This document shows, in pieces, positions 4,722-60,458 of a stretch of 64,000 bases of DNA. The notes beneath the pieces are model-generated. The model was not told where the DNA came from. It was given only the letters and a program-made list of their open reading frames with translations, and ran no database searches. This DNA is from Sphaerolaimus hirsutus (Eukaryota > Nematoda > Chromadorea > Monhysterida > Sphaerolaimidae), in contig OZ038452.1 in assembly GCA_964036195.1 (NCBI GenBank), positions 26,671,785 to 26,735,784 of the forward strand, in the 5' to 3' direction. The position numbers and the translations under genes are program-made. Each line of letters opens with the position of its first letter. The stretch's first letter is position 1.

Positions 4722-43404
<38,683 letters not shown>

Positions 43405-43781: not shown

Positions 43782-44581
43782 GTGTATGTATCCACCGTGT
43801 CGGTTCGTTGGCTCGGGTTTGATGGGTCGGCTTTTTGCGGACAAAAACACGGGCGCCGGAACAAAACGGTCCGGCTTAGCGTCCGGCCGTCGCTTGTATA
43901 CATGGATCACTTTTTGCGGGTAAGTGTACTCAACGGTGTAGTAAGGTTGGTCTATAATCGAGTGGAAAAGTGGAATGTAAGTGGCGTGCACAAGCGCAAG
44001 CGGGTGGGGGTCTGGGCTGGGGTGGGAGAATAAACACCTTCTTACCCAAGTTCGGCAGTCATTGTGTCGTGAGATAGTGACTGCCATAGCTCCGACTATG
44101 GGGGAATAAATGTCTAAAATTCTGAGGAAGGTACCAAATGATCAAACAAACCAAGTCTGGCATAAAATGGAATTTTTACAAATAAGGTGCTTCAGCCTGG
44201 TAAATCGGGTACATAGCTGCATTTAAAAAATGCAGTGACCGTTTTCCTGGCTGAATTAAAGAAAGGTATAAAAGAGTATGTGGTTCTTTCATTCATTTTA
44301 TTTTCATATCTTTCATTTTATGTATGGTATGGCAAATTTAGCCACCCAAGTAAATGCCAGCTAAAGAAATTGTCTTATTTCATTTTTAGCACCACACTTT
44401 ATGATGCTCTCACTTTATGATGCTCTCTCATAGGGTAAAAGCATCAAATTTGGGTGAAAAACATTTCCCCAAATTACAGTCCAGAGTTTCAGAGGGGGTG
44501 AATGCAAAAGTGCCAAAATAGGTTGCAATTTGATGTCATTGATGGGCTGACCATACCCTGCCAGTGTTCAAAAGTGGGGGT
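43782..44581. other. Channel intron left of the LTR element
   Basis: Unique-looking sequence, moderately AT-rich, no coding signal. I searched here for the exon that should precede IS1 (ending EWK) and did not find it. Confidence 0.5.
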
Positions 44582-44734
44582 TGTAAAGTGTGCGGATCTC
44601 ACTTTAGAGTTTATTTCGGTTTCGGGGTGATCACACAGTGTCTTTTTATCACTAAAACATTGCTTAAATAGCCATCACAACAGAAGTGCTCAAATCTACT
44701 AGTTTACGTTCACACAAGTCTCTGTCAACTTACA
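44582..44734 (-). repeat. 3' LTR (153 bp)
   Basis: Begins TGTAAG and ends CTTTACA on the element strand, giving the usual TG...CA ends. Read in element sense it contains TATTTAAG (44664-44670), then about 50 nt later AATAAA (44610-44615), the order expected of U3-R-U5. The inner boundary is inferred from TG next to the polypurine tract, because the other LTR is hidden. Confidence 0.8.
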
Positions 44735-44745
44735 TTCTCCCCCAC
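44735..44745 (-). promoter_or_regulatory. Polypurine tract
   Basis: Element strand GTGGGGGAGAA directly precedes the TG of the 3' LTR, the normal plus-strand priming site of an LTR retroelement. Confidence 0.7.
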
Positions 44746-44755
44746 GAAGAAAAAA

Positions 44756-44771
44756 GAAAAGAAAATCCTGT
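44756..44771 (+). repeat. 16-bp direct repeat, left copy
   Basis: GAAAAGAAAATCCTGT, identical to 48616-48631. The two copies bracket the accessory-gene cassette on both sides. A-rich, so chance is possible. Confidence 0.5.
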
Positions 44772-44788
44772 TGTAGTGTCTGATCCTC

Positions 44789-46590
44789 TCAATTTTTATC
44801 CTTGGTTGTCATTCCCGAGCAAGTGGCCATTTCTGTACTGTTGTCTTGATCCTCATAATCCTCGATTTCGTCCTCTAAATCCATGTTTTCGACTTCTTCT
44901 CTGGTGTATCCATGCTTTGCGGTGAGCGTCATCTTGGATGGGGCACCAGGCGAAGTCGCAGAAGTAGCTAAAAAGTGTTTTCATTTAATTAATTTTCTTT
45001 AATCAAGATGTTCGGATGGGATAAATTTTAATCATGGGGAAATTGTAGATGTAAAGTGTAAAATCTTTATTAGATGTAAGTGTTGACTAGTCTGTTTTCC
45101 CGTTTTTATTTGAAGAAAAAAGGTTTGTCATGCGTAATTTAGGTTATACATTTTATATCACGCAGAAAATTGGTTTACCGGTGTTTTTGTTCACCATAGG
45201 GGTTTTCGGTTTGGTGCTGCGTGGCAAGGCTATATTGCAATTTTCTTGGTCTTCCGTGGTGTAACTATGAATGCTCTCGTTGTCATCCATATCGGGTTCG
45301 GTTGTATTTGCTCCACCCATTTTATATGCGAAATAGTCATCGAGGAAGCGTGACATATCTGTAATTATTATAGAGCCGAAAATAATTGAGTTTTTCATGA
45401 AAACTCTTATTAAATAATTAAGTTCCAGAAAAACAATATTCTGGCAGAAAAAAGTGGAATTTAAATTATTTTTCTTTCTTTTTAGTGCAAATTTGTATCT
45501 CCCGTATTGCACGTCGGATGATAGAGTGGTATTTTATTTGTATTTGTCTTACCTTTTTGGTTAAAGCTTCCGCGTGTGTTTCCACGTTTAAAGTTTCCAC
45601 GCCTGGGGAAACGTTGATACCCCCTTCTGTTGCCGCGATAATTTCCCCTGCCCCTGCTGGCAGTTAAGCCAAGAGATGCAGTCACTGAAGTTGGTATGTC
45701 GTTAAACAAATTGTCGGTTCCACAGGGTGTATAGGTAGGCACCTGTGTTGTGTGGACCAGTATAAATGGAAGTAGCTATTATGTTTTAGCTATTTCAAAT
45801 CCGTTTGATCAATTCGAATTTTGATTTTAAAATTTAGAAAAAGGTAAAATTTCCAAAAAAAAAAATTTTATTCACCTTTTTCTTGGGAAAATTGCCCAAT
45901 TGACTCTTCGATTGCGTGAGTTTCGGTTTGCATAGGTCATTAACAATAGTCTTTGTGGTATCTGTTGTGGCCAATTTTTCATTATCAAACCCTTCAAAAT
46001 CGACTTGGCAGTCTTTAGTTTCTTCATTTTGTAACAATTGTGGCGTAATTTTCAAGCGTTTATTCATTCTAGATGCCAGTGCGTGGACCATCCATTCTAC
46101 CTGATATTGAGATATTGTAATTATAAAATTGTAAATTACAGTTTAACTGTATTTCTATTTTATTGAAAGTTAACCGAAATTTTATTTTATATAATTGTAA
46201 AATTTGTTGTTGAATTTGATTCTATTTATATTTTATTTAAAATTTTATCAAATTTTACCTGCAAAGGTAAAAGAATGTAAAAGTAGAACAAACATCAGTT
46301 CCGGGAACTAAATGCGCTTTCTCTTGATATTTCAGTTTGTCTGATAGTACTTGCATTTGCAAAGATTTCTGATTTAGCAGTTTTTCATATTCCAAGTTCT
46401 GTTTCAGCAACTTTGCGATTTCGGCTTGGCTTTTTACTTTTTCACTTTCCTGGGCAAATAGCTCTTTGCTAACTTTATGCAAAAAAGTTCTGCACGTTTG
46501 GCATTTGCTGACATAAGGATAATGATAAGGGCATAACTTTTCGAGAATTGCGTTTGCGCGCGGTGTGGGAGCGAAGTTTTTTGCATCCAT
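44789..46590 (-). CDS. Accessory gene 1 of the LTR element (sense, five exons, about 356 aa)
   Basis: Exons 46294-46590, 45876-46100, 45553-45742, 45179-45358 and 44789-44967; every junction is GT-AG and phases run 0,0,1,1 to TGA. Exon 1 has a Cys/His cluster (CPYHYPYVSKCQTC, residues 20-33) followed by a Lys/Leu/Glu-rich coiled coil (about 45-92). Exon 3 carries an Arg/Gly box (GRGNYRGNRRGYQRFPRRGN), a single-stranded nucleic-acid binding signature. Exons 4-5 are acidic (MDLEDEIEDYEDQDN). It lies between pol and the 3' LTR, in the same sense, where env would be. The first donor (gtttgt) is weak; another 34 nt further on would break frame. No homologue recognised. A nuclear or RNP role is inference from composition only. 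Confidence 0.75.
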
Positions 46591-46902
46591 TTTCACACAC
46601 CTATGCCCTTTTAGCTGTTCGTTGTGTTGTTTATTTCGTTATAAAATTATTATTCGGAACAAGTGATTGGAAATATCGTTGAGTTTCCTGACTGTAAAGG
46701 TAGTGTGACTAATTGGCCACTATTTTTCAAAAAAGAAAAAAGCGCCAAAAAGGCGGAGTTTATAATATCAAAAATTTCCTTTATTTCGAATGTTTGTGTT
46801 CTCTAAGCGGGAAATTCGATGTTTGTGATTAGATTTTTTGCTGGACAAGCGTTTGTAAGACGCGATCTAATAGAGTTTGAAAAAAAGTTGACCCGTAATA
46901 AA
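46591..46902. promoter_or_regulatory. Divergent promoter region between the two accessory genes
   Basis: 312 bp separates the two ATGs. It is AT-rich with several A runs and no long open frame; no clear TATA box at the usual distance on either side. Both genes must start here or upstream in the other gene's leader, so a bidirectional promoter is the simplest reading. Confidence 0.5.
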
Positions 46903-48617
46903 ATGGAGCAATATCTAGAACCGCAGTTGTTTGCGGCGGCCGCTATTAGGCCGTTTGTCGTGAGCACTATAAATCAGGTTTGAATTAAGTAATCGAGTAT
47001 CATAGTTTTAATAACATTGTTGATAGCGTGCCAAATTAATTTCAGCGTGCATTTATTGGCTCCGAATACGATTTCACGGGATTTTTTGAAAACCGCAATT
47101 TCATCAAAATGGAGAATTATCTAAATGGAAATGTAAACGGCGTGACATTTGTCATTATTGAGCGCCCAGATCAATGCGAAATATTGTTGCACGAAGATGG
47201 TACGGTTTCCCGCCCGCCGTTCCACCAGATGGCTGTGTGTTTTTTTCCATTTTTATTTAATTTTTGTCTGTTGCTGACATTGCAATTATGCGAATGTTCA
47301 AAGTGCTTTCTTTTGCAGTCGAAGTATTCGGTGAACGATCTCAGTTTGCACAAATTCTGTCGCGAGAATAGATTTCAAAAACACATTGCCGGCATGATAG
47401 ACTGTGCCATGTGCATCTGTGGGCTCTGTGGCGATCATGCCCTCAAAAATGTGTTTGACTTCTGTAAAAATTTCGTTTTCGGCGACTGCGGAATTTTCGA
47501 GAACAAAAAAGGCGTCAAATGTGGCCCAATTGTTAGCATTGTTTTATTTTTCATTTTGTTTAATGACTACGTAATTAGTTGTGTTTACGTAATTAATTAT
47601 TAATGGTAAAATTACTGTTCACTGAATTAAATAATTGTATCAAAAGATACTAATTGTCCATGCATCTAATTTTCGCAATTATGATGTAATGATTACATGA
47701 TCTAATTATGTTGAATTACTAATTATGTTGAATTACCAGTAATTAAATTTCTACGCAGTTTGGCATTGATTGTCACATGTCCGGAGATAGATGTGCCCCA
47801 GCCGTGAATGCTATCATGGAAGGGTTTGCATACAGGCGCGCTAATTTTCTGGATAACAGCACCGACGTTGGAAAAGTAAAAATCTTCAATTTCAACCCTT
47901 TTGTATATGGGTGAGTTTCAAGTTTATGTGTGAATTACTTTGAACGATAATGACGTTGTACTTTCAACTTTTGTGGATTCATAATAACGTAATTTTTAAT
48001 TTATTTTCTCCTGAATTTGAGATATTTTGACATTTTAGAGATGTATACTGTAATATCAAATGTTTACTGTGAGTTTTTACCAGAAGACTTATTAGAATAT
48101 CAGGGGATTTATTAGAATATAACTTAATTTATTTATTTTTTCTTTCAGAAAGAAAGATCAAACGAAGTTGAGTAAATTGGCTTTGAGCGAGATGGAAAAA
48201 TTGAATGCCGTCATTTGTGATGACGGTTTACCTAAAATGTCTATTGTATATAGAAAATCACATGGCACTGGCGATGAAGGAAAAGAGGTGTGTCATGTTG
48301 ACTGTTTTTGTATTTCAGCGTTCGATTGTTTTTATTTTCAAGCGTTCTTTATCTTAATTTTAGATAACTCTGACGGGTCGCAAATTGACGTCCGAATTGG
48401 AACGTATGAAAAACTCAAATACAATGAAGTCTGCTTTGGAGTGTTATTTTAAAAAGACTGGTTTGTTGTGTTTCTAAGTTGTGTATTTTAGTTACTAGGA
48501 TGTAAATATGTGTTTGTGGTTAAATTTCTTTTGAACTCAGATTTTCCGCGCGTGTCGGGCAGCACGGCGAGTAGCAGTAGTGTCTACGGCGGTGCTTGTA
48601 GCAGTTCGAAAAAATGA
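46903..48617 (+). CDS. Accessory gene 2 of the LTR element (antisense, seven exons, about 313 aa)
   Basis: Exons 46903-46977, 47046-47234, 47319-47531, 47759-47910, 48149-48287, 48364-48460 and 48541-48617 join in frame (phases 0,0,0,2,0,1) to TGA. Begins MEQYLEPQLFAAAAIRPFVV. Exon 3 has a tight Cys/His cluster (CAMCICGLCGDH) and later Cys pairs, a possible metal site. The tail is Ser-rich (GSTASSSSVYGGACSSSKK). No signal peptide or membrane segment remains after splicing. It points away from accessory gene 1 and meets gag-pol tail to tail, with 125 bp between the stops. Because it is antisense, its introns are invisible to splicing of the element RNA and survive retrotransposition. No family recognised. 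Confidence 0.78.
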
Positions 48618-48631
48618 AAAGAAAATCCTGT
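48616..48631 (+). repeat. 16-bp direct repeat, right copy
   Basis: Second copy, overlapping the stop codon of accessory gene 2. Located between that gene and gag-pol. Confidence 0.5.
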
Positions 48632-48742
48632 GTTAATTAGGCTTTGATTGGACAGTTGTTAGTTTTCGTTTGTGTTTTATTTTGAAGTGACACTTTACAG
48701 TTAAGTTACTGCGATTATTTAATTACTAGTAAAGTTTAGAAC

Positions 48743-51700
48743 TCAAGTTCGAATTGGCACTAACATGCTGACATGTTTTTCAATGGCTGGAAGTGTTTCG
48801 TCATTCAAATTTTTCAAAGTTGCGTAGCCATTTTCTAATTTTAGAATTTTAAACGGTCCCTCGTTTCTAGGTGCCAATTTTGACTCTGGCGTTATTTTTA
48901 TAAATACATGCATGTTTGCTTTGAGTTGATTTGACGGATTTTGATTATGGCGGCCTTTAAACCATTCTGAGTATTTTTTTCGGTTTGCGTCAGAATTGAA
49001 TTTTGCGATACGCCATTGTTTAGCCATATTCATGGAAGAAGTAATAAAATTTCCATAATGTTTGTGTATTGGCATTCGATCAAATAATAATAAAAATGGT
49101 GGAAAACCAGTAGATTGGTTCGTGGTTAGATTGTGACGTAAAACACATAGTGGCAATAAGTTTACCCAATTTTTATCTCCCTCTAAAGAAGTTCGTAGAA
49201 TTTTACAAATAGACTGAATTGCTCTTTCAGCCATCCCGTTTGACTGGGGATGGTACGGATGGATGTTTGAATGGTTTACCATATACTTCTGAAACAAAGT
49301 TGTAATGTTTTTACCCACAAATTCTCGCCCGTTATCTGTAACGAACGTTTTTGGAGGACCGTAAACTGCGAAACAGTGTGTTTCAATAACTTGTGCAATT
49401 GTAGCGTTTGTTTTCTGTTTAATGGGAACAGCAACAATGTATCTGGTAAAAGAGTCAATAATTAACAGAATGTATTTGTATTTTTTATACATGGGCATTT
49501 CACATAAGTCGGCATGTACTGTATGGAACGGTTGTGAAGCTGTTGGGTGTACTAAAATTTCGGGTGTACATGTTCGAGAGGTTTTATATGTTTGACAAGT
49601 AATACAATTTCTACAGTACTTTTCAACATCTTTTTCTATATTTGGCCACATTCCATAATGCGTTAATAATTGCGCCGTTTTCTGGGCAGCAGAATGTGAC
49701 CCGTATAGTCCATTATGGAATTCCATCAAAAATGCTTTTCGCAGGTGTTCTGGGACTAATGGAACGTATTTTCCTGTTGGATTTTTCATACATAAAATTG
49801 AATCAATATAAGTATAGATTGTGTCATTAGAGTTCGATTTAATATTGATGTCAACAATTTTTTGAATTTCAGCGTCTTTTAGTTGTTCTGCAGCCCAATT
49901 TAAAGTTCCAGAAAAACTTGAACCATATTGTGGAGCTTCCGTTCCCTCTGGAATAGAATTGAAAAATGATTCTGTCATTTTTATGTCTTCAGGATCCACT
50001 GGAAATAGATGAGGTTGAATATCAATTAATTTTGCAGATTCTGTCAACTCATAAGTGTCTTCTGGGGAATCGATTGGGTTTCTTGAAAGTTGATCTGCCA
50101 CTATATTCAAATTGGCATTTTTATGTTCAATTCTAGTTATTTTCGCCTGTAGGTACATAGCCCACCTCTCCAAGATTGATGCATGTGGAGATTTAAATGC
50201 GTCCACAACTCCACGATTATCAGTCTGTAAAATAATGGATTGGCCCTCAATTAACGGAGAAAGTCTTCTCACAGCAAAAGCTATAGCCAATGCTTCCAGC
50301 TGTGCTGCAGACCAATTTTTGTATTGAGCATGAACCCTCTTACTAATATAGGCTATAGGGTGTAATTTTCCATCATTTATATCTTCTTGAAGTAAAACAG
50401 CTGATAATCCTTGACGGCTTGCATCCGTTTGTAAGATGAAAGGTTTATTTGAGTGATAGTTTGGGTGTGCTAATACTGGAGCGGTTGTTAGAGCGAATTT
50501 CAGTTTTACATAAGCTGATGTCATTTCTGGAGTCCACTGAATTGCTTCAAATCCATTTTTAGGATACTTTCCACTAATTGCGTCAGTCAATGGCGCTGCA
50601 ATAATGGAATATTGTGGAATGAAATGTGAAAAAGTAGTTGTCTTTCCTAGAAATCTGCGTAGGTCTTGTTTAGACTGTGGTTGGTCTTGGTGTCTTACAG
50701 CATTAACTCTGTCATGAGCTGGAGCAATTCCCTCGGCACTGACGTCATGTCCGAGATATCTTAGTTTTTTTACTAAAAATAAACACTTTTTTGGCCCAAG
50801 TCTCAACCCAGCCCATTTCAAGCGTGCAAATACTTTGTCTAAATGTATTAGATGTTGTTCAATATTATCGCTGGATATTAAGATATCATCTAAATAGGCT
50901 CGTACCCACTTATTGGTATAGTCTTCGCAAAGTCCGCGTAATAAGATTGTCATCAATTTTTGAAAGGAAGCGGGGCTGCCAGAGGCTCCCATGGGTGCTC
51001 GCAGAAATCTAAATTGTCCGAGTGAACACACAAACGCGGTAGCGTCTTTGGTTTCCTCATTACCTAGGGGTATATTGTAGAAGCCGTGTTTTAAGTCTAA
51101 TGAAGAGAAAACTTTTCTCCCTGCTAGTTCTGTTAAGATGTGCCCAATTTGTGGCAATGGCCAAGACTGTGTTAATGTGACACTATTTAATAGTCTAAAG
51201 TCAACTACTAGACGCCACCCCCCGCTGCTTTTCTTAGCAACTGAAATAGGGCTGGCCCAGGGGGAGTCGCAGGCTTCAATTATGCCTTGCTGTAGCATAT
51301 TTTCAATTGTTTCATAAATGTATTGTCTTTTTTCTAAGGATTCATACCTGGGGGGTTGTTTCATTGGTTTTTGACTAGGATCTGTCTTGATATAATGTTT
51401 AACTAATGTGGTACAACCCACATCAAATTCTCCACAGCTAAATATGTCATGATAATTTTCAATTAAGTCCCAAAATGTTTTTGATTGTGACTTTGTCAAT
51501 TCAATTTGATTGTCCACAGGTAAATGTGTTTTTATGTGTTGAAAACGTTCTTTTGGGTCTATAGGGAAGCTATTTAATGGTGGTTTCCAATTTGGAGGGG
51601 TTGGCCATGGTGTGGCATAGTTGCAAGTTATTTGATTATTTTTGGTTTCTTTTATTTTCCATATTTGTTGATTTGGGTACCAGGACCCTAATTTGAGGTT

Positions 51701-54700
51701 TTTACGTAATTGAATGGAAATATCTGCAGTGTTCAATACATAAAATATATATTGTGTATGTTTTTTAATAGGTGTATCGATATAGACAGAATGTGTTTCC
51801 AAAAATGGGTAAATTTCAGCCAGATTTATGTCAATAATTCCCCCAGTAGATGTAGTGCAGTTGAGATGACAATGTAATTTATTCATTGAATTTGGTTTCA
51901 AATTGTAACTTTTTGTCAAGTAAACAGTTGACTGAGATGAAGTTGTTGGTTCGTCCATGTAATTCTTCCAGTCAGAAAATTTCGGTTCTGACAAGCACCA
52001 TTTTACAGCTGCTTCATTTTTTGTCAATTGAATGGCATTTTTACTTTGTACGTTTTTACGCTGTGGTAAAGTAGAATGATAAAATTGGTCAATTTTTTTG
52101 TGTAACTTTAATGAGGAAAGTAGATCGTTTCCAATTATAATTTTTTCAGAAGCATTTTTTGACATATTTACTAAGAAAGTGCAAATTGCATGATAGCATT
52201 TTTTCTTAGTATTATTTAAATAGGCAATTGGCAGTCTGAGTTTATGTATTGACCCTGGCAGTGTTAGTGCTGCAATTTGTCTTAATTGAAATTTCGATTT
52301 AGATGTTGTTATGGATGGAAATTTTTGTTTTATCTGTTGAACAAATGTGTATGGAATAATGGATTTCATTGATCCAGTGTCTATGATGACATTTGTCATT
52401 ATTCCAAACAAAAATAATGGCATTTCGATCAATTTACCAACTGTTGACTTTATTTTACCATAATATTTGTGTTTATATGTTGTTTCAGTTTTAGGAGGAA
52501 TGCTTTCATTCTTGGTCGATGTATCAAAACATTTTTTACTTTCACAATTGACATTCTGAGGTGATAAACTAGTAGGATCGGAATTGAATTTTAATTCACC
52601 GGTTCGATCACAATTCACTATTTTCTTCAACTGAGTTTTCATTTGATGGGACATTTTCCACGTTTTTTTCATCGGTTTCCTGGCCTTCGTCGTCGGCATC
52701 TGCAAGTGGGAGTTTAATGGTGAATTAGTATAATAAGAGTGTAAAATTTTTTGGAAATTACCTGATTCGTTTTCTGTGGCCACGAAATCATAAACTGTTT
52801 TGGCTATCTGTTCTTGTAACTGTTCTGGTAATTCATGGGCTTGTTGCGAAAACTCGGTCATAAATGTATGTAGTGTATTTTTATTCTCTCCCGGCAGTTT
52901 ATATGCATTAGAGGGAGCATTTTTTGGGAAAGTTGTATTGTGAGTTGGCGAAGGGCCCACGGTGCGAACTCCCTGGTAACCAGCATTTGACGGAAATTTG
53001 TTGAATTTATTATCTGCGACATTTGAATTTCCCAAAACTAATTTTGCATTTTGCTGTAGACGTTTTCGTTTTATGCAATCGGCTTTAGAGTGATTGCCAT
53101 GTCCTGGAAAATCACATGGTTCAGAATCTACTTTTTTGACAAATTTTTTATTTTTCCACGTTTGTCCTGTATAGTTTTTGGGTGATGCATTTTGATTATC
53201 TTGAGTTTTTATCATTCCAGAGTCTTCCAACTCGCGTGAATATAAATCCAATTGAAATGCAATTTCCCTGGGCTCTGTAATTTTGTGTGTAGTCAAATCC
53301 CTTTTTAAATTAAACAAAAAGTTGGAATCATATTTATTTGTGATCAAATTTCTCAATAGGTGATTGGAAACAAAATTTTTCCATGATGTGGCATTCATAT
53401 TTTGCAATACTTCATTTGGTAGTTTTGCCAGCAGCCGAGCACAGAACTGTACTGCGGTTTCGTTTGGTTTTTGGTTTAGTTTCTGCCACATAACCATGCT
53501 CATTCGTTTATCAAATGGATTGAAAAGTTGCAAAAATTCTTTTAAAACGAATTTATAGTCAAATTTTTGTTCGTCAGAAAACGTTTTGTAAATATCTCTG
53601 GCTGAGCGTTTTAATTTGGTTTGGAAAATCAATTTCCAAATAGCCGGCCAAAATGGTTCGGGGAAAACGGTCAAATGACAAATTACTGAGTTTTTCCAGT
53701 CCCTAAAACTTTCGGTGGTTGAACCCTCATAATCTGTTATTTGTTGCAGTAGTAATTGTAATGTAGTGGTCAAATTAGGGTCTAAATCGCTGAGAGAGGG
53801 TTGATTTACGGTCTCGCTAAGTTTTTCCAAAGTTTTTATATTTCCGGCCGTTTGCTTGGTACTTTTGGAATTTATTAATGTTTCTACTTGATCCTTTAAA
53901 TTGTAATATTCTTGATACATTGGCGTCAAATGTTGCCTAAGTTCCTGATTAACAACATTTTTTACTTCTTCGGCAACCATTACGCCAATAGTACTTGATA
54001 AATTTTCGACGATGTCGGTTGACATTTGAGCATTTTTTTGATCAATCGTTTTTGAGTAGAGAGACAGTTTATTTTCCAACATTACTTCCATTTGATGAAA
54101 CAAATGATCATAATTTATGACACTGTTCATTAATTGTGAGTTTAGCGACGCGCTGAAATGTGTCCTTTCATTACTGTAATTTGGATTCATGCTATTATTG
54201 TCCGGTTGAATGGCTGTATGCGTGCTCATATTTACTACTGGGTTGTGGTTTCTAGTTTTTGGTTTCGTTTTCAATGCTGCATTTGCTTGTAAGAAAAATT
54301 GTTCAGTGGTGACGTCATCTCCCAAATTTGGGTTGCGAGAGCGTGTATTTTGAGAAGGTTTTTCGAAACCGGGTGGTGGTATGGCCAAAAAGGCGAATTC
54401 CGGTGCCGGTAAGTTCCGTGAAGATGGTCCCTGAATTTCTGGCTCGGAGCCATGTAACGACATTTGTAGGGAACCATTATGGGAGACTGGTAAAGTACCG
54501 TTTAAAGGAGGCGCGGGGCCATTTTCCATGTGTATCATCCCATTTTGAGAAGGCTCTGAGCCAATTGTCGAACCATTTTGGTTCAGAATGAAGCGATCTT
54601 CAGAAATCGAATCATTTGAATGAGCGTGGTCATTCATTGTCGGCTGTTCTACCCAAAGGGTGAATTGCCAAAGCACTAGTATAAGTGCGATAGTCGTCTG

Positions 54701-54778
54701 TAGATGTAACATCCAGACTTTACTGTGATTTTTCACTCCGAAATTTTTGTGGGAGATGTTGCCCACCAGGTCCACCAT
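48743..54778 (-). CDS. Gag-Pol polyprotein of the LTR element (single frame)
   Basis: 2011 codons, stop TGA at 48743-48745. Gag region, then a zinc-knuckle variant at C555-C568 in which the second Cys is Pro (C-x2-P-x4-H-x4-C); aspartic protease DTGS at D800; RT with D1228 (SLDLKHGF) and YLDD at 1295-1298; RNase H with QTDAS at D1452; integrase zinc ligands H1688, H1695, C1722, C1725 and catalytic D1757, D1815, E1851 (35 residues between the last two); then a GPF-type C-terminal module (NEGPFKIL). The domain order PR-RT-RH-IN and the GPY/F module place it in Ty3/gypsy (Metaviridae). There is no chromodomain. Translation probably starts at the Met near codon 48 (MNDHAHSND), since codons 1-47 overlap the primer site. 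All catalytic residues are present. Gag and Pol share one frame, so no frameshift separates them. Confidence 0.95.
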   Translation of the reverse strand: MVDLVGNISHKNFGVKNHSKVWMLHLQTTIALILVLWQFTLWVEQPTMNDHAHSNDSISEDRFILNQNGSTIGSEPSQNGMIHMENGPAPPLNGTLPVSHNGSLQMSLHGSEPEIQGPSSRNLPAPEFAFLAIPPPGFEKPSQNTRSRNPNLGDDVTTEQFFLQANAALKTKPKTRNHNPVVNMSTHTAIQPDNNSMNPNYSNERTHFSASLNSQLMNSVINYDHLFHQMEVMLENKLSLYSKTIDQKNAQMSTDIVENLSSTIGVMVAEEVKNVVNQELRQHLTPMYQEYYNLKDQVETLINSKSTKQTAGNIKTLEKLSETVNQPSLSDLDPNLTTTLQLLLQQITDYEGSTTESFRDWKNSVICHLTVFPEPFWPAIWKLIFQTKLKRSARDIYKTFSDEQKFDYKFVLKEFLQLFNPFDKRMSMVMWQKLNQKPNETAVQFCARLLAKLPNEVLQNMNATSWKNFVSNHLLRNLITNKYDSNFLFNLKRDLTTHKITEPREIAFQLDLYSRELEDSGMIKTQDNQNASPKNYTGQTWKNKKFVKKVDSEPCDFPGHGNHSKADCIKRKRLQQNAKLVLGNSNVADNKFNKFPSNAGYQGVRTVGPSPTHNTTFPKNAPSNAYKLPGENKNTLHTFMTEFSQQAHELPEQLQEQIAKTVYDFVATENESGNFQKILHSYYTNSPLNSHLQMPTTKARKPMKKTWKMSHQMKTQLKKIVNCDRTGELKFNSDPTSLSPQNVNCESKKCFDTSTKNESIPPKTETTYKHKYYGKIKSTVGKLIEMPLFLFGIMTNVIIDTGSMKSIIPYTFVQQIKQKFPSITTSKSKFQLRQIAALTLPGSIHKLRLPIAYLNNTKKKCYHAICTFLVNMSKNASEKIIIGNDLLSSLKLHKKIDQFYHSTLPQRKNVQSKNAIQLTKNEAAVKWCLSEPKFSDWKNYMDEPTTSSQSTVYLTKSYNLKPNSMNKLHCHLNCTTSTGGIIDINLAEIYPFLETHSVYIDTPIKKHTQYIFYVLNTADISIQLRKNLKLGSWYPNQQIWKIKETKNNQITCNYATPWPTPPNWKPPLNSFPIDPKERFQHIKTHLPVDNQIELTKSQSKTFWDLIENYHDIFSCGEFDVGCTTLVKHYIKTDPSQKPMKQPPRYESLEKRQYIYETIENMLQQGIIEACDSPWASPISVAKKSSGGWRLVVDFRLLNSVTLTQSWPLPQIGHILTELAGRKVFSSLDLKHGFYNIPLGNEETKDATAFVCSLGQFRFLRAPMGASGSPASFQKLMTILLRGLCEDYTNKWVRAYLDDILISSDNIEQHLIHLDKVFARLKWAGLRLGPKKCLFLVKKLRYLGHDVSAEGIAPAHDRVNAVRHQDQPQSKQDLRRFLGKTTTFSHFIPQYSIIAAPLTDAISGKYPKNGFEAIQWTPEMTSAYVKLKFALTTAPVLAHPNYHSNKPFILQTDASRQGLSAVLLQEDINDGKLHPIAYISKRVHAQYKNWSAAQLEALAIAFAVRRLSPLIEGQSIILQTDNRGVVDAFKSPHASILERWAMYLQAKITRIEHKNANLNIVADQLSRNPIDSPEDTYELTESAKLIDIQPHLFPVDPEDIKMTESFFNSIPEGTEAPQYGSSFSGTLNWAAEQLKDAEIQKIVDINIKSNSNDTIYTYIDSILCMKNPTGKYVPLVPEHLRKAFLMEFHNGLYGSHSAAQKTAQLLTHYGMWPNIEKDVEKYCRNCITCQTYKTSRTCTPEILVHPTASQPFHTVHADLCEMPMYKKYKYILLIIDSFTRYIVAVPIKQKTNATIAQVIETHCFAVYGPPKTFVTDNGREFVGKNITTLFQKYMVNHSNIHPYHPQSNGMAERAIQSICKILRTSLEGDKNWVNLLPLCVLRHNLTTNQSTGFPPFLLLFDRMPIHKHYGNFITSSMNMAKQWRIAKFNSDANRKKYSEWFKGRHNQNPSNQLKANMHVFIKITPESKLAPRNEGPFKILKLENGYATLKNLNDETLPAIEKHVSMLVPIRT
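54760..54777 (-). promoter_or_regulatory. Candidate primer binding site
   Basis: Immediately after the LTR CA the element strand reads TGGTGGACCTGGTGGGC; TGG complements a tRNA CCA end. I could not match it to a particular tRNA. The first ATG of the long open frame overlaps this junction, which is probably coincidental. Confidence 0.5.
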
Positions 54779-54806
54779 GTAAAGTGTGCGGATCTCACTT
54801 TAGAGT
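54778..54806 (-). repeat. 5' LTR end, truncated by gap
   Basis: 29 bp identical to the left LTR (start 44582) before the run of N. In element sense it is the 3' end of the 5' LTR, finishing in CA directly before TGG of the primer binding site. Confidence 0.85.
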
Positions 54807-55006
54807 NNNNNNNNNNNNNNNNNNNNNNNNNNNNNNNNNNNNNNNNNNNNNNNNNNNNNNNNNNNNNNNNNNNNNNNNNNNNNNNNNNNNNNNNNNNNNN
54901 NNNNNNNNNNNNNNNNNNNNNNNNNNNNNNNNNNNNNNNNNNNNNNNNNNNNNNNNNNNNNNNNNNNNNNNNNNNNNNNNNNNNNNNNNNNNNNNNNNNN
55001 NNNNNN
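54807..55006. other. Assembly gap (exactly 200 N)
   Basis: The round length suggests a placeholder of unknown true size. It hides most of the 5' LTR, the element's right flank and possibly the channel exon preceding IS1. Confidence 0.99.
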
Positions 55007-59110: not shown

Positions 59111-60458
59111 TGGCATTTTTCCATTGTTTTTCCAATCTGTATTTATCTTCAATCGGCTCATCCCATTGTGTTGTTTTTGTCTCTTGGAGCATCATTGACA
59201 ACTGGGATTTCAGGGTCAGTGAAACAGGTGCTGTGAACCCAATTGGGTCATATGCTGACACCAATAATTTATTCAAGTTTCATCTGGTTGGTGTTGTGAT
59301 GCTGTCAATTTGCAATTTTGGTGTTGATATTGCCAGCATGTCCGTTCGGTGATTTTATTTCATGTCCATTACTGTGACAATTTTATTCACTTTTGGACTC
59401 CTGTCATTTTCTGCTATTTCATTCATGACTGATCTGGAGTTTGACAGCCATTCCCTCATGTTCATAGAACATTGGTTAAATAAAGCTTTGACTTTGTAAT
59501 ATAGTTCTAAAGCTTCAACTTCATTCGTGACACTCATGATGAAGTTATCAATAAAAATGTTGTTTATTATCATCACCAACTGGTTTTGTTCCCCTTCATT
59601 TTCTTCATATTCATTCATGTTGTTTATTGTCACATTTAAATGGTATTTTATGACTGCTCCCAAAACTGCTGGGCTGCAGACAAGTCCAAACAGTACACGT
59701 TTAAAACGAAGTACTATTAAGTTATTTTCAGTTACTGGTTTTGAGGCATCTTTCAGCCAGAAAAATTGTGTGTAGTCTCTAGCTTGGTCATGCAATCCTA
59801 TTTGCAAAAATGCCTTTTCAATATTGGCAATTAATGCTAGATTGCCTGCCCTGAACCTCAGGAGTAGGCCCAGTGCTAATGGTGTTGTAATTGGTCCTCT
59901 AAAAAGGCACTCGTTGAAACTGGGCTTACCTGCCGACCCATTGTACATGATTCTGCATGATGTCAATTTGCCCAGTGTGATTACTGGCTGGTGTAGCAGG
60001 TAATGAATCCCCTTGTTGTCTGTTTTGTCTTCACAGATCTCAATTATTCCCTTTTTTAGTTGGTTGTCCAAAACTTTCCGGTATTGTTCGAATAAGTTTG
60101 GATCTTTGTTGAATCTTCTTATCAGTGATTTAAACCACACCAAGGCATCTGCTTTTCCTGTGGGCAGGTCACTGATACTCTCTTTATATGGCCAGTCAAT
60201 ATAGTATTGTTTGTTGTTGTCGTTGAATTTTATGCTATTTATTATCATCTCCTCTGCAATGTTGTCATCAATTGCATAGGGGTCATCAGTGATTCCCACT
60301 GCTTCTAGACTGTGAAATTGTCGTAGTGTTTCCTTTCCTATGGCCACTATCGCTACTTTTTGATGATTTTTTGTTGGTTCAGTTAAGCTTGAACTACAAG
60401 TGAAGTTACAGGCATGATCCATAGTTGCAGAATGTACAGCTACCACAATCAAAGCCAA
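59067..60458 (-). pseudogene. BEL/Pao reverse transcriptase fragment, catalytically dead
   Basis: One open block (59355-60458) is followed in frame, past a stop, by another (59067-59276). BEL/Pao features in order: FHSLEAVGITDDP, GKADALVWFKSL, FNECLFRGPITTPLALG, LIANIEKAFLQIGLHDQARD, then FIDNFIMS, SMNMREWLSNS and SAYDPIGFTAPVSLTLKS. The catalytic Asp of DIEKAF is Asn, and the YVDD box reads FIDN. There is no gag, protease, RNase H or integrase around it. It sits inside a pyrimidine-rich minisatellite that continues on both sides. Confidence 0.85.

Follow-up and report, generated by a model that had tools for sequence, protein, structure and literature searches.

Two divergent, multi-exon genes behind pol in a Ty3/gypsy-type retrotransposon lineage of the nematode Sphaerolaimus hirsutus

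When a long terminal repeat (LTR) retrotransposon carries extra genes behind pol, are these genes an accident of one copy or a lasting trait of the element? This question is raised by a 64,000-nucleotide stretch of the genome of the nematode Sphaerolaimus hirsutus (GenBank assembly GCA_964036195.1, contig OZ038452.1, positions 26,671,785 to 26,735,784; hereafter, the window). A Ty3/gypsy-type LTR retrotransposon lies on the minus strand of the window at 44582..54806. The 4,008 bases between its gag-pol stop codon and its 3′ LTR form a cassette of about 4.0 kb, which contains two divergent genes with predicted introns. The original prediction, which was made from the window alone, left two options: capture of the gene pair, or a lineage that has regulatory proteins of its own. 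We conclude that the gene pair is old and selected and is not a one-off capture. The lineage part of the prediction thus stands, because homologues of the antisense and sense genes are present in four and three of five related elements, respectively. In contrast, the term "regulatory" was not borne out, since searches for relatives of the two proteins found none.

The element and the two genes of its cassette

The gene with the same orientation as gag-pol (the sense gene, minus strand) has five predicted exons and would encode a protein of 356 residues. Exon 1 (46294..46590) encodes a C-x2-H-x6-C-x2-C motif and then a charged, coiled-looking stretch. It is followed by exon 2 (45876..46100), the Arg/Gly-rich exon 3 (45553..45742), exon 4 (45179..45358), which has the SIHSYTTEDQENCNIALP motif, and exon 5 (44789..44967), which encodes an acidic C-terminus and includes the stop codon. 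The antisense gene (plus strand) has seven predicted exons, namely 46903..46977, 47046..47234, 47319..47531 (with an invariant C-x-C-x2-C), 47759..47910, 48149..48287, 48364..48460 and 48541..48617 (with the stop codon). Its protein would comprise 313 residues, or about 340 if translation begins at a further in-frame Met codon upstream, at 46822. The start codons are separated by 312 bp (46591..46902), presumably a two-way promoter.

Every junction of both genes is GT-AG and in frame, and the introns are 68-238 bases long. The GC content is 0.37-0.55 in the exons and 0.18-0.31 in the introns of the two genes. A codon model trained on gag-pol preferred the predicted frame to the other two forward frames in six of seven antisense exons and in all five sense exons. 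When the reverse frames were included, the predicted frame was the best in five antisense exons and again in all five sense exons; the score itself was negative in three antisense and two sense exons. The models with 5 and 7 exons, already proposed in the original prediction, were confirmed, and further elements, described below, have homologues whose introns are partly at the same positions. Both genes are very probably expressed as spliced proteins.

The assignment of the element is based on its LTRs, primer site, polypurine tract and the order of the pol domains. As the original prediction had claimed, its LTR ends match: 29 of 29 bases are identical between 44582-44610 and 54778-54806. The 3′ LTR (44582..44734, minus strand, 153 bp) is complete; it begins with TG and ends with CA (TGTAAG...TTTACA) and contains TATTTAA and AATAAA at promoter-like and poly(A)-like places. 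The polypurine tract GTGGGGGAGAA, read from the sequence at 44735..44745 (minus strand), lies directly inside this LTR, also in agreement with the original prediction. Only 29 bp of the 5′ LTR (54778..54806, minus strand) are visible, because the remainder falls in a 200-N gap (54807-55006); consequently, the right boundary and any target-site duplication are unreadable in the window. Another 200-N gap is located 21 bases from the 5′ LTR of a related element, C4 (L016:5337-5536). The presumed primer-binding site (TGGTGGACC..., 54766..54777, minus strand) directly adjoins the 5′ LTR on its inner side, and its motif TGGTGGAC is found as well in the related elements C4, C3 and C15.

The gag-pol gene is, as predicted, a single intact open frame of 2011 codons (48743..54778, minus strand) with the order protease, reverse transcriptase (RT), RNase H and integrase. 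The frame matches the families RVT_1, RNase H, Integrase_H2C2 and rve, and the protease was recognised by eye from its DTGS motif alone. The gag part holds a Cys/His stretch. The first ATG of the frame spans the junction of the LTR and the primer site, and Met48 (54637) may be the true start. Two further observations concern the borders. A direct repeat of 21 matches in 22 bases lies on both sides of the cassette (44750-44771 and 48610-48631). Moreover, runs of C are found beside the LTRs of C4 (L016/L017) and C3 (L014/L015) and on the readable side of the element in the window (44571-44581), while the sequence at C15 is AACGG. The C-runs possibly reflect an insertion preference.

Homologous genes in related elements

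The 348-Mb genome was searched for RT sequences, and 150 of 3,823 candidate RT places were scored; the list is incomplete for this lineage, since the RT of the element in the window itself was absent from it. Four places, C3, C4, C15 and C16B, were selected by a 495-base RT match that is close to the spacing in the window element (164 residues), and at this point their cassettes were unknown. A fifth relative, C16A, was met by chance immediately upstream of C16B. Twelve other RT-bearing stretches (L018-L029) served as a contrast set. The whole comparison thus covers six elements from one genome. The RT identity to the window element is 71-74% in the four selected relatives and 65-74% in C16A, and the RNase H-integrase identity is 45-48% and 43%, respectively. 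The gag identity is 39% for C4, 47% for C16B and 38% for C15.

As the original prediction had suggested, we checked whether a cassette stands behind pol in these copies. Homologues of the antisense protein were found behind pol, on the strand opposite to pol, in C4, C15, C16B and C16A (E 3e-13 to 2e-4), and homologues of the sense protein, on the pol strand, in C4, C15 and C16B (E 5e-9 to 4e-6). These proteins are about 30% identical to those of the window. No match to either protein at E 0.001 was obtained behind the RT in any of the 12 contrast stretches. In C4 (about 10.2 kb), two 148-bp LTRs with 99.3% identity enclose gag, pol and the cassette; in C15, two 165-bp LTRs with 99.4% identity do the same, and the gag-pol stretch there also includes about 13 kb of other DNA. 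The cassette therefore moves together with the element, and in these two cases it did so recently. Short flanking duplications are CCCC at C4 and AACGG at C15. No LTRs were found for C16A and C16B, and C16A gave no gag match.

The exon-intron structures of the homologues were modelled with a purpose-made splice-aware alignment program, by which the window proteins were aligned to stretches of 3.8-5.1 kb from the relatives. The scores were 153-203 for the antisense protein in four elements and 150-261 for the sense protein in three. Shuffled controls (12 per protein, from one C4 region each) scored 30-42 and 31-41, respectively, in regions of 2.0 and 1.8 kb, which are shorter than the stretches searched. 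In the antisense gene (341-residue numbering), intron 1 (residue 53, phase 0) is common to all four relatives. Intron 2 (116, phase 0), intron 3 (187-191, phase 0) and intron 4 (231-237, phase 2) are each common to three of the four; the exceptions are C4, which looks frame-shifted at intron 2, C16A, which differs at intron 3, and again C4, whose model ends before intron 4. The last antisense exons were poorly modelled in the relatives; they lie mostly outside the antisense alignment (A2) and wholly outside the substitution analysis described below. The sense gene has four introns in the window and at least three in the relatives modelled. Its intron 1 (98-100, phase 0) is common to all three relatives, and its last intron is in phase 1 in the window, C16B and C4 and in phase 0 in the C15 model.

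Rates of nonsynonymous (dN) and synonymous (dS) substitution were calculated from exons paired by order, with the open frame chosen for each exon; each element contributed four exons of the antisense gene and three to four of the sense gene. Because of this pairing, some sense pairs were only partly aligned. Between C4 and C16B, dN of the antisense exons is 0.24 at a dS of 1.98. For the sense exons, dN is 0.26-0.27 with saturated dS in the pairs C4-C15 and C4-C16B. The remaining antisense and sense pairs (dN 0.38-0.80, dS nearly always saturated) are less informative. Thus, there are signs of purifying selection on both genes among C4, C15 and C16B, in that dN is well below a mostly saturated dS. 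Furthermore, trees of RNase H-integrase (seven rows), the antisense protein (five rows) and the sense protein (four rows) agree in joining C4 and C16B (support 0.95-1.0) and in placing the window element and C15 apart from this group; C16A, where present, is outside as well. The agreement of trees with so few tips is modest evidence for joint descent.

Several observations count against the reading of the pair as an old and selected trait. C3 (L014:1439-1593 to L015:6775-6929) is an internally deleted element of about 4.3 kb, which keeps RT to integrase between identical 155-bp LTRs, and neither gag nor the cassette was detected in it. A copy can therefore form without the cassette in cis; C3 possibly moved with help in trans. 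In C16A, no sense gene was detectable: the window protein scored 52, and three relatives used as queries scored 59-61, against 43-69 and 43-62 in 12-shuffle controls made for two of these queries. The sole sense resemblance in C16A is a short C-x2-H...C-x2-C stretch. Two copies are apparently broken, since the C4 antisense gene looks frame-shifted near the end of exon 2 and sense exon 1 of C16B contains an in-frame stop codon and also changes frame. Sense intron 2 is placed at residue 174 in the window but at about residue 140 in the relatives. The third sense intron of the window is missing from C15 and C16B and is elsewhere in C4. Pairs with the window (dN 0.64-0.78, dS saturated or 3.0) say little about selection. 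Contrary to the tree, simple identity puts the C4 sense protein closer to C15 (0.67) than to C16B (0.62).

Even with these points, the pair is best read as an old, selected lineage trait because of the homologues in divergent members, the partly shared introns, the dN below dS among C4, C15 and C16B and the position of the cassette inside LTR-bounded elements. The cassette is almost certainly a lasting trait of this element lineage.

Neighbouring and other features

Next to the element, a voltage-gated calcium channel gene occupies 15200-43500 on the minus strand, with a GPHH domain at 18908-19405. Four motifs, EGWT (37318), GEDW (33228), FEGWP (26036) and GEAW (19667), are presumably those of the channel pore. 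The retrotransposon sits upstream of the first recognised segment of the channel. The first membrane segment of the channel has two similar candidate exons, at 43502-43182 and at 42481-42056 (minus strand), which are perhaps mutually exclusive. On the other side, a weak RT remnant was observed at 59355-60458 (minus strand; RVT_1 E 0.00087, below the cut-off of the family). Rfam, applied at gathering scores across the window, gave no match.

Elsewhere in the genome, a remoter gypsy element (L031:2630-3479, minus strand; RT identity 48%) has short sense open reading frames (ORFs) behind integrase, one of which is coiled-looking; it gave no match to either accessory protein. Two open frames with an RT, of 4,837 codons each, are present at G000:C3:21887261 and C16:23421047.

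Protein families and possible functions

In the sense family, the C-x2-H-x6-C-x2-C motif is present in the window, C15 and C4. The alignment row of C16B begins after the motif, which is visible in the C16B copy with a stop inside it. The family also shares a charged, coiled-looking stretch and a conserved S-Y-T...D-Q...N-I-x-L-P motif. In the antisense family, C-x-C-x2-C is invariant in all five alignment rows. Neither protein scored above any Pfam cut-off. When 5.8 billion proteins were searched, neither the antisense protein nor the alignment of the sense protein (A1) matched anything at E 0.01, and IMG/VR gave no relative for the antisense protein, for a piece of the RT or for the alignments A1 and A2. 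The best PDB match (E 0.019) was a tau entry that aligned over a possibly coiled stretch, and we judged it not credible. For comparison, residues 330-1180 of gag-pol matched two distant, unnamed gag-pols.

The introns of the sense gene are informative about the element. If a spliced RNA were reverse-transcribed, introns that lie in the genomic direction would be lost. The antisense introns are safe in the genomic RNA, where their sites are no splice sites. The sense introns would vanish if the genomic RNA were spliced; therefore, the element needs a means to keep its genome unspliced. Because the LTRs of C4 and C15 are 99.3-99.4% identical, the sense-strand introns have been retained in recent copies. 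Thus, the genome of the element stays unspliced, although its sense mRNA is spliced if the gene models are correct.

We propose the following explanation. A single LTR-driven RNA would serve both as gag-pol mRNA and as genome, and the sense gene would lie within this RNA, ending upstream of the poly(A) signal of the LTR. The sense protein would be a nuclear RNA-binding factor that exports or protects the unspliced genomic RNA, like CERV, Rev or Rex; the candidate basis for this role is the C-x2-H-x6-C-x2-C motif, the likely coil, the basic Arg/Gly-rich or KRKR stretch and the acidic tail. The Cys-rich antisense protein would probably have its promoter in the intergenic stretch and would regulate the element, as HBZ does in HTLV-1 (human T-cell leukemia virus type 1). 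By analogy with these factors, we tentatively suggest that the sense protein acts on unspliced genomic RNA, and we hold it possible, with less confidence, that the antisense protein is a regulator of the element. Two points speak against the export role. The basic stretch is not constant, being KRKR in three relatives and Arg/Gly-rich in the window copy only, and no domain backs the role because the searches described above found no relative of either protein.

This explanation can be compared with known systems. HTLV-1 and other complex retroviruses encode regulatory proteins on both strands, some of them through spliced RNA, and export an unspliced genome. HBZ of HTLV-1 is encoded by a spliced antisense gene that is read from the 3′ LTR. 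In contrast, the antisense coding exons of the window begin within the cassette, roughly 2 kb away from the LTR (at 46903 or, with the upstream Met, at 46822), although an upstream non-coding exon is possible. No homology was found, nor was an env in the window element.

A further likeness exists within nematodes. According to the text of PMC10309623 consulted, CERV of the Caenorhabditis elegans element Cer1 is a nuclear protein from a five-exon mRNA, has a potential leucine zipper and KRKK, has no obvious relatives outside nematodes and serves the export of unspliced Cer1 genomic RNA. Cer1, as described there, and the window element are both of the Ty3/gypsy type with gag and pol not separated by a stop codon. 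The sense protein resembles CERV, by that description, in place, predicted splicing and general make-up. However, the first exons of CERV overlap gag, whereas the sense gene of the window starts on its own beyond pol; and the main text of PMC10309623 does not contain the word "antisense", whereas the window has a divergent antisense partner.

Extra genes behind pol are also described in other groups. In the portions consulted of PMC7264820 and PMC11963269, the plant elements Grande, RIRE2 and Retand are reported to possess an antisense extra ORF between pol and the 3′ LTR, as in the window, that is kept family-wide; the Grande ORF has its own promoter. In contrast to the two divergent multi-exon genes of this animal element, the word "intron" does not appear in the main text of either paper. 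LTR elements of bdelloid rotifers, which are likewise animal elements with an extra gene, have a varied ORF3 (env, GDSL, DEDDy, TM and coiled-coil types) that is reportedly expressed through spliced messages, but the parts of PMC5408684 consulted describe no divergent pair. The accessory genes of Ectocarpus were considered and set aside because, as far as PMC12477816 was consulted, they sit in giant DNA transposons. Thus, plant antisense extra ORFs, rotifer ORF3s and CERV are known already, and a divergent multi-exon pair was not met among them in these texts. Nor was one found in the consulted open-licence literature on such elements, on accessory genes of Metaviridae, on HTLV-1 and on CERV-like factors; absence there is no proof.

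Other functions have to be weighed against export. The sense protein might be a nucleocapsid or packaging partner, which binds the genomic RNA in particles instead of exporting it. The zinc-like C-x2-H-x6-C-x2-C motif of the window, C15 and C4 (and of C16B, with its internal stop) and the Arg/Gly stretch of the window would suit this role; however, gag already has a Cys/His stretch, and KRKR, a possible nuclear signal, is common to three relatives, so that we regard packaging as unlikely. We give a similarly low weight to the idea that the proteins counter host silencing by small-RNA or chromatin pathways and do not act on genomic RNA. Fast divergence is expected under host conflict, and the accessory proteins are about 30% identical while RT is about 73% identical. 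Gag (38-47%) and RNase H-integrase (43-48%) diverge fast as well. Pfam offers no domain evidence in either direction.

It is much less probable that the two genes replace env and aid movement from cell to cell. Plant sense extra ORFs include env-like ones (PMC7264820, in the part consulted), but one of the genes here is antisense, and in both proteins of the window the 19-residue Kyte-Doolittle averages stay at or below 1.6, so that there is no clear membrane segment. With neither a membrane segment nor a Pfam match, these two proteins do not qualify as a membrane fusion protein between pol and the 3′ LTR.

A one-off capture, in which a single copy took up, or inserted around, a host gene pair and the cassette is incidental, has very little left in its favour. 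The 21/22 direct repeat that flanks the cassette in the window would fit such an event, but a like repeat does not exceed 10 bases in C4, and none of 10 bases or more exists in C15; we therefore dropped the repeat as a capture scar. The homologues at the same place and on the same strands elsewhere, the shared introns, the signs of selection and the agreeing small trees all oppose this explanation. Finally, the notion that the exons are chance open stretches, to which the higher scores of reverse frames in antisense exons 3 and 7 might point, is hardly credible given alignment scores of 150-261 against 30-42 for shuffles, the shared intron phases, the GC contrast and the codon scores in most exons.

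To the explanation proposed above, an old and selected pair whose sense protein would keep genomic RNA unspliced and whose antisense protein would regulate the element, we assign as a whole a probability of about 0.5. A wider interpretation, which we consider doubtful, is that an invertebrate Ty3/gypsy lineage independently evolved two-strand control resembling the one in complex retroviruses, with a divergent promoter, a spliced sense export or retention factor and a spliced antisense regulator, the pair being copied through RNA with its introns and selected since before the lineage split.

The finding adds two protein families without detected relatives. Introns in the genomic direction are expected to be lost at the first spliced copy, and those of the sense gene have outlasted the divergence of the lineage (43-48% RNase H-integrase identity to the window). 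Thus, the general question of how an element keeps its genome unspliced while splicing its own mRNAs becomes testable outside the vertebrate retroviruses.

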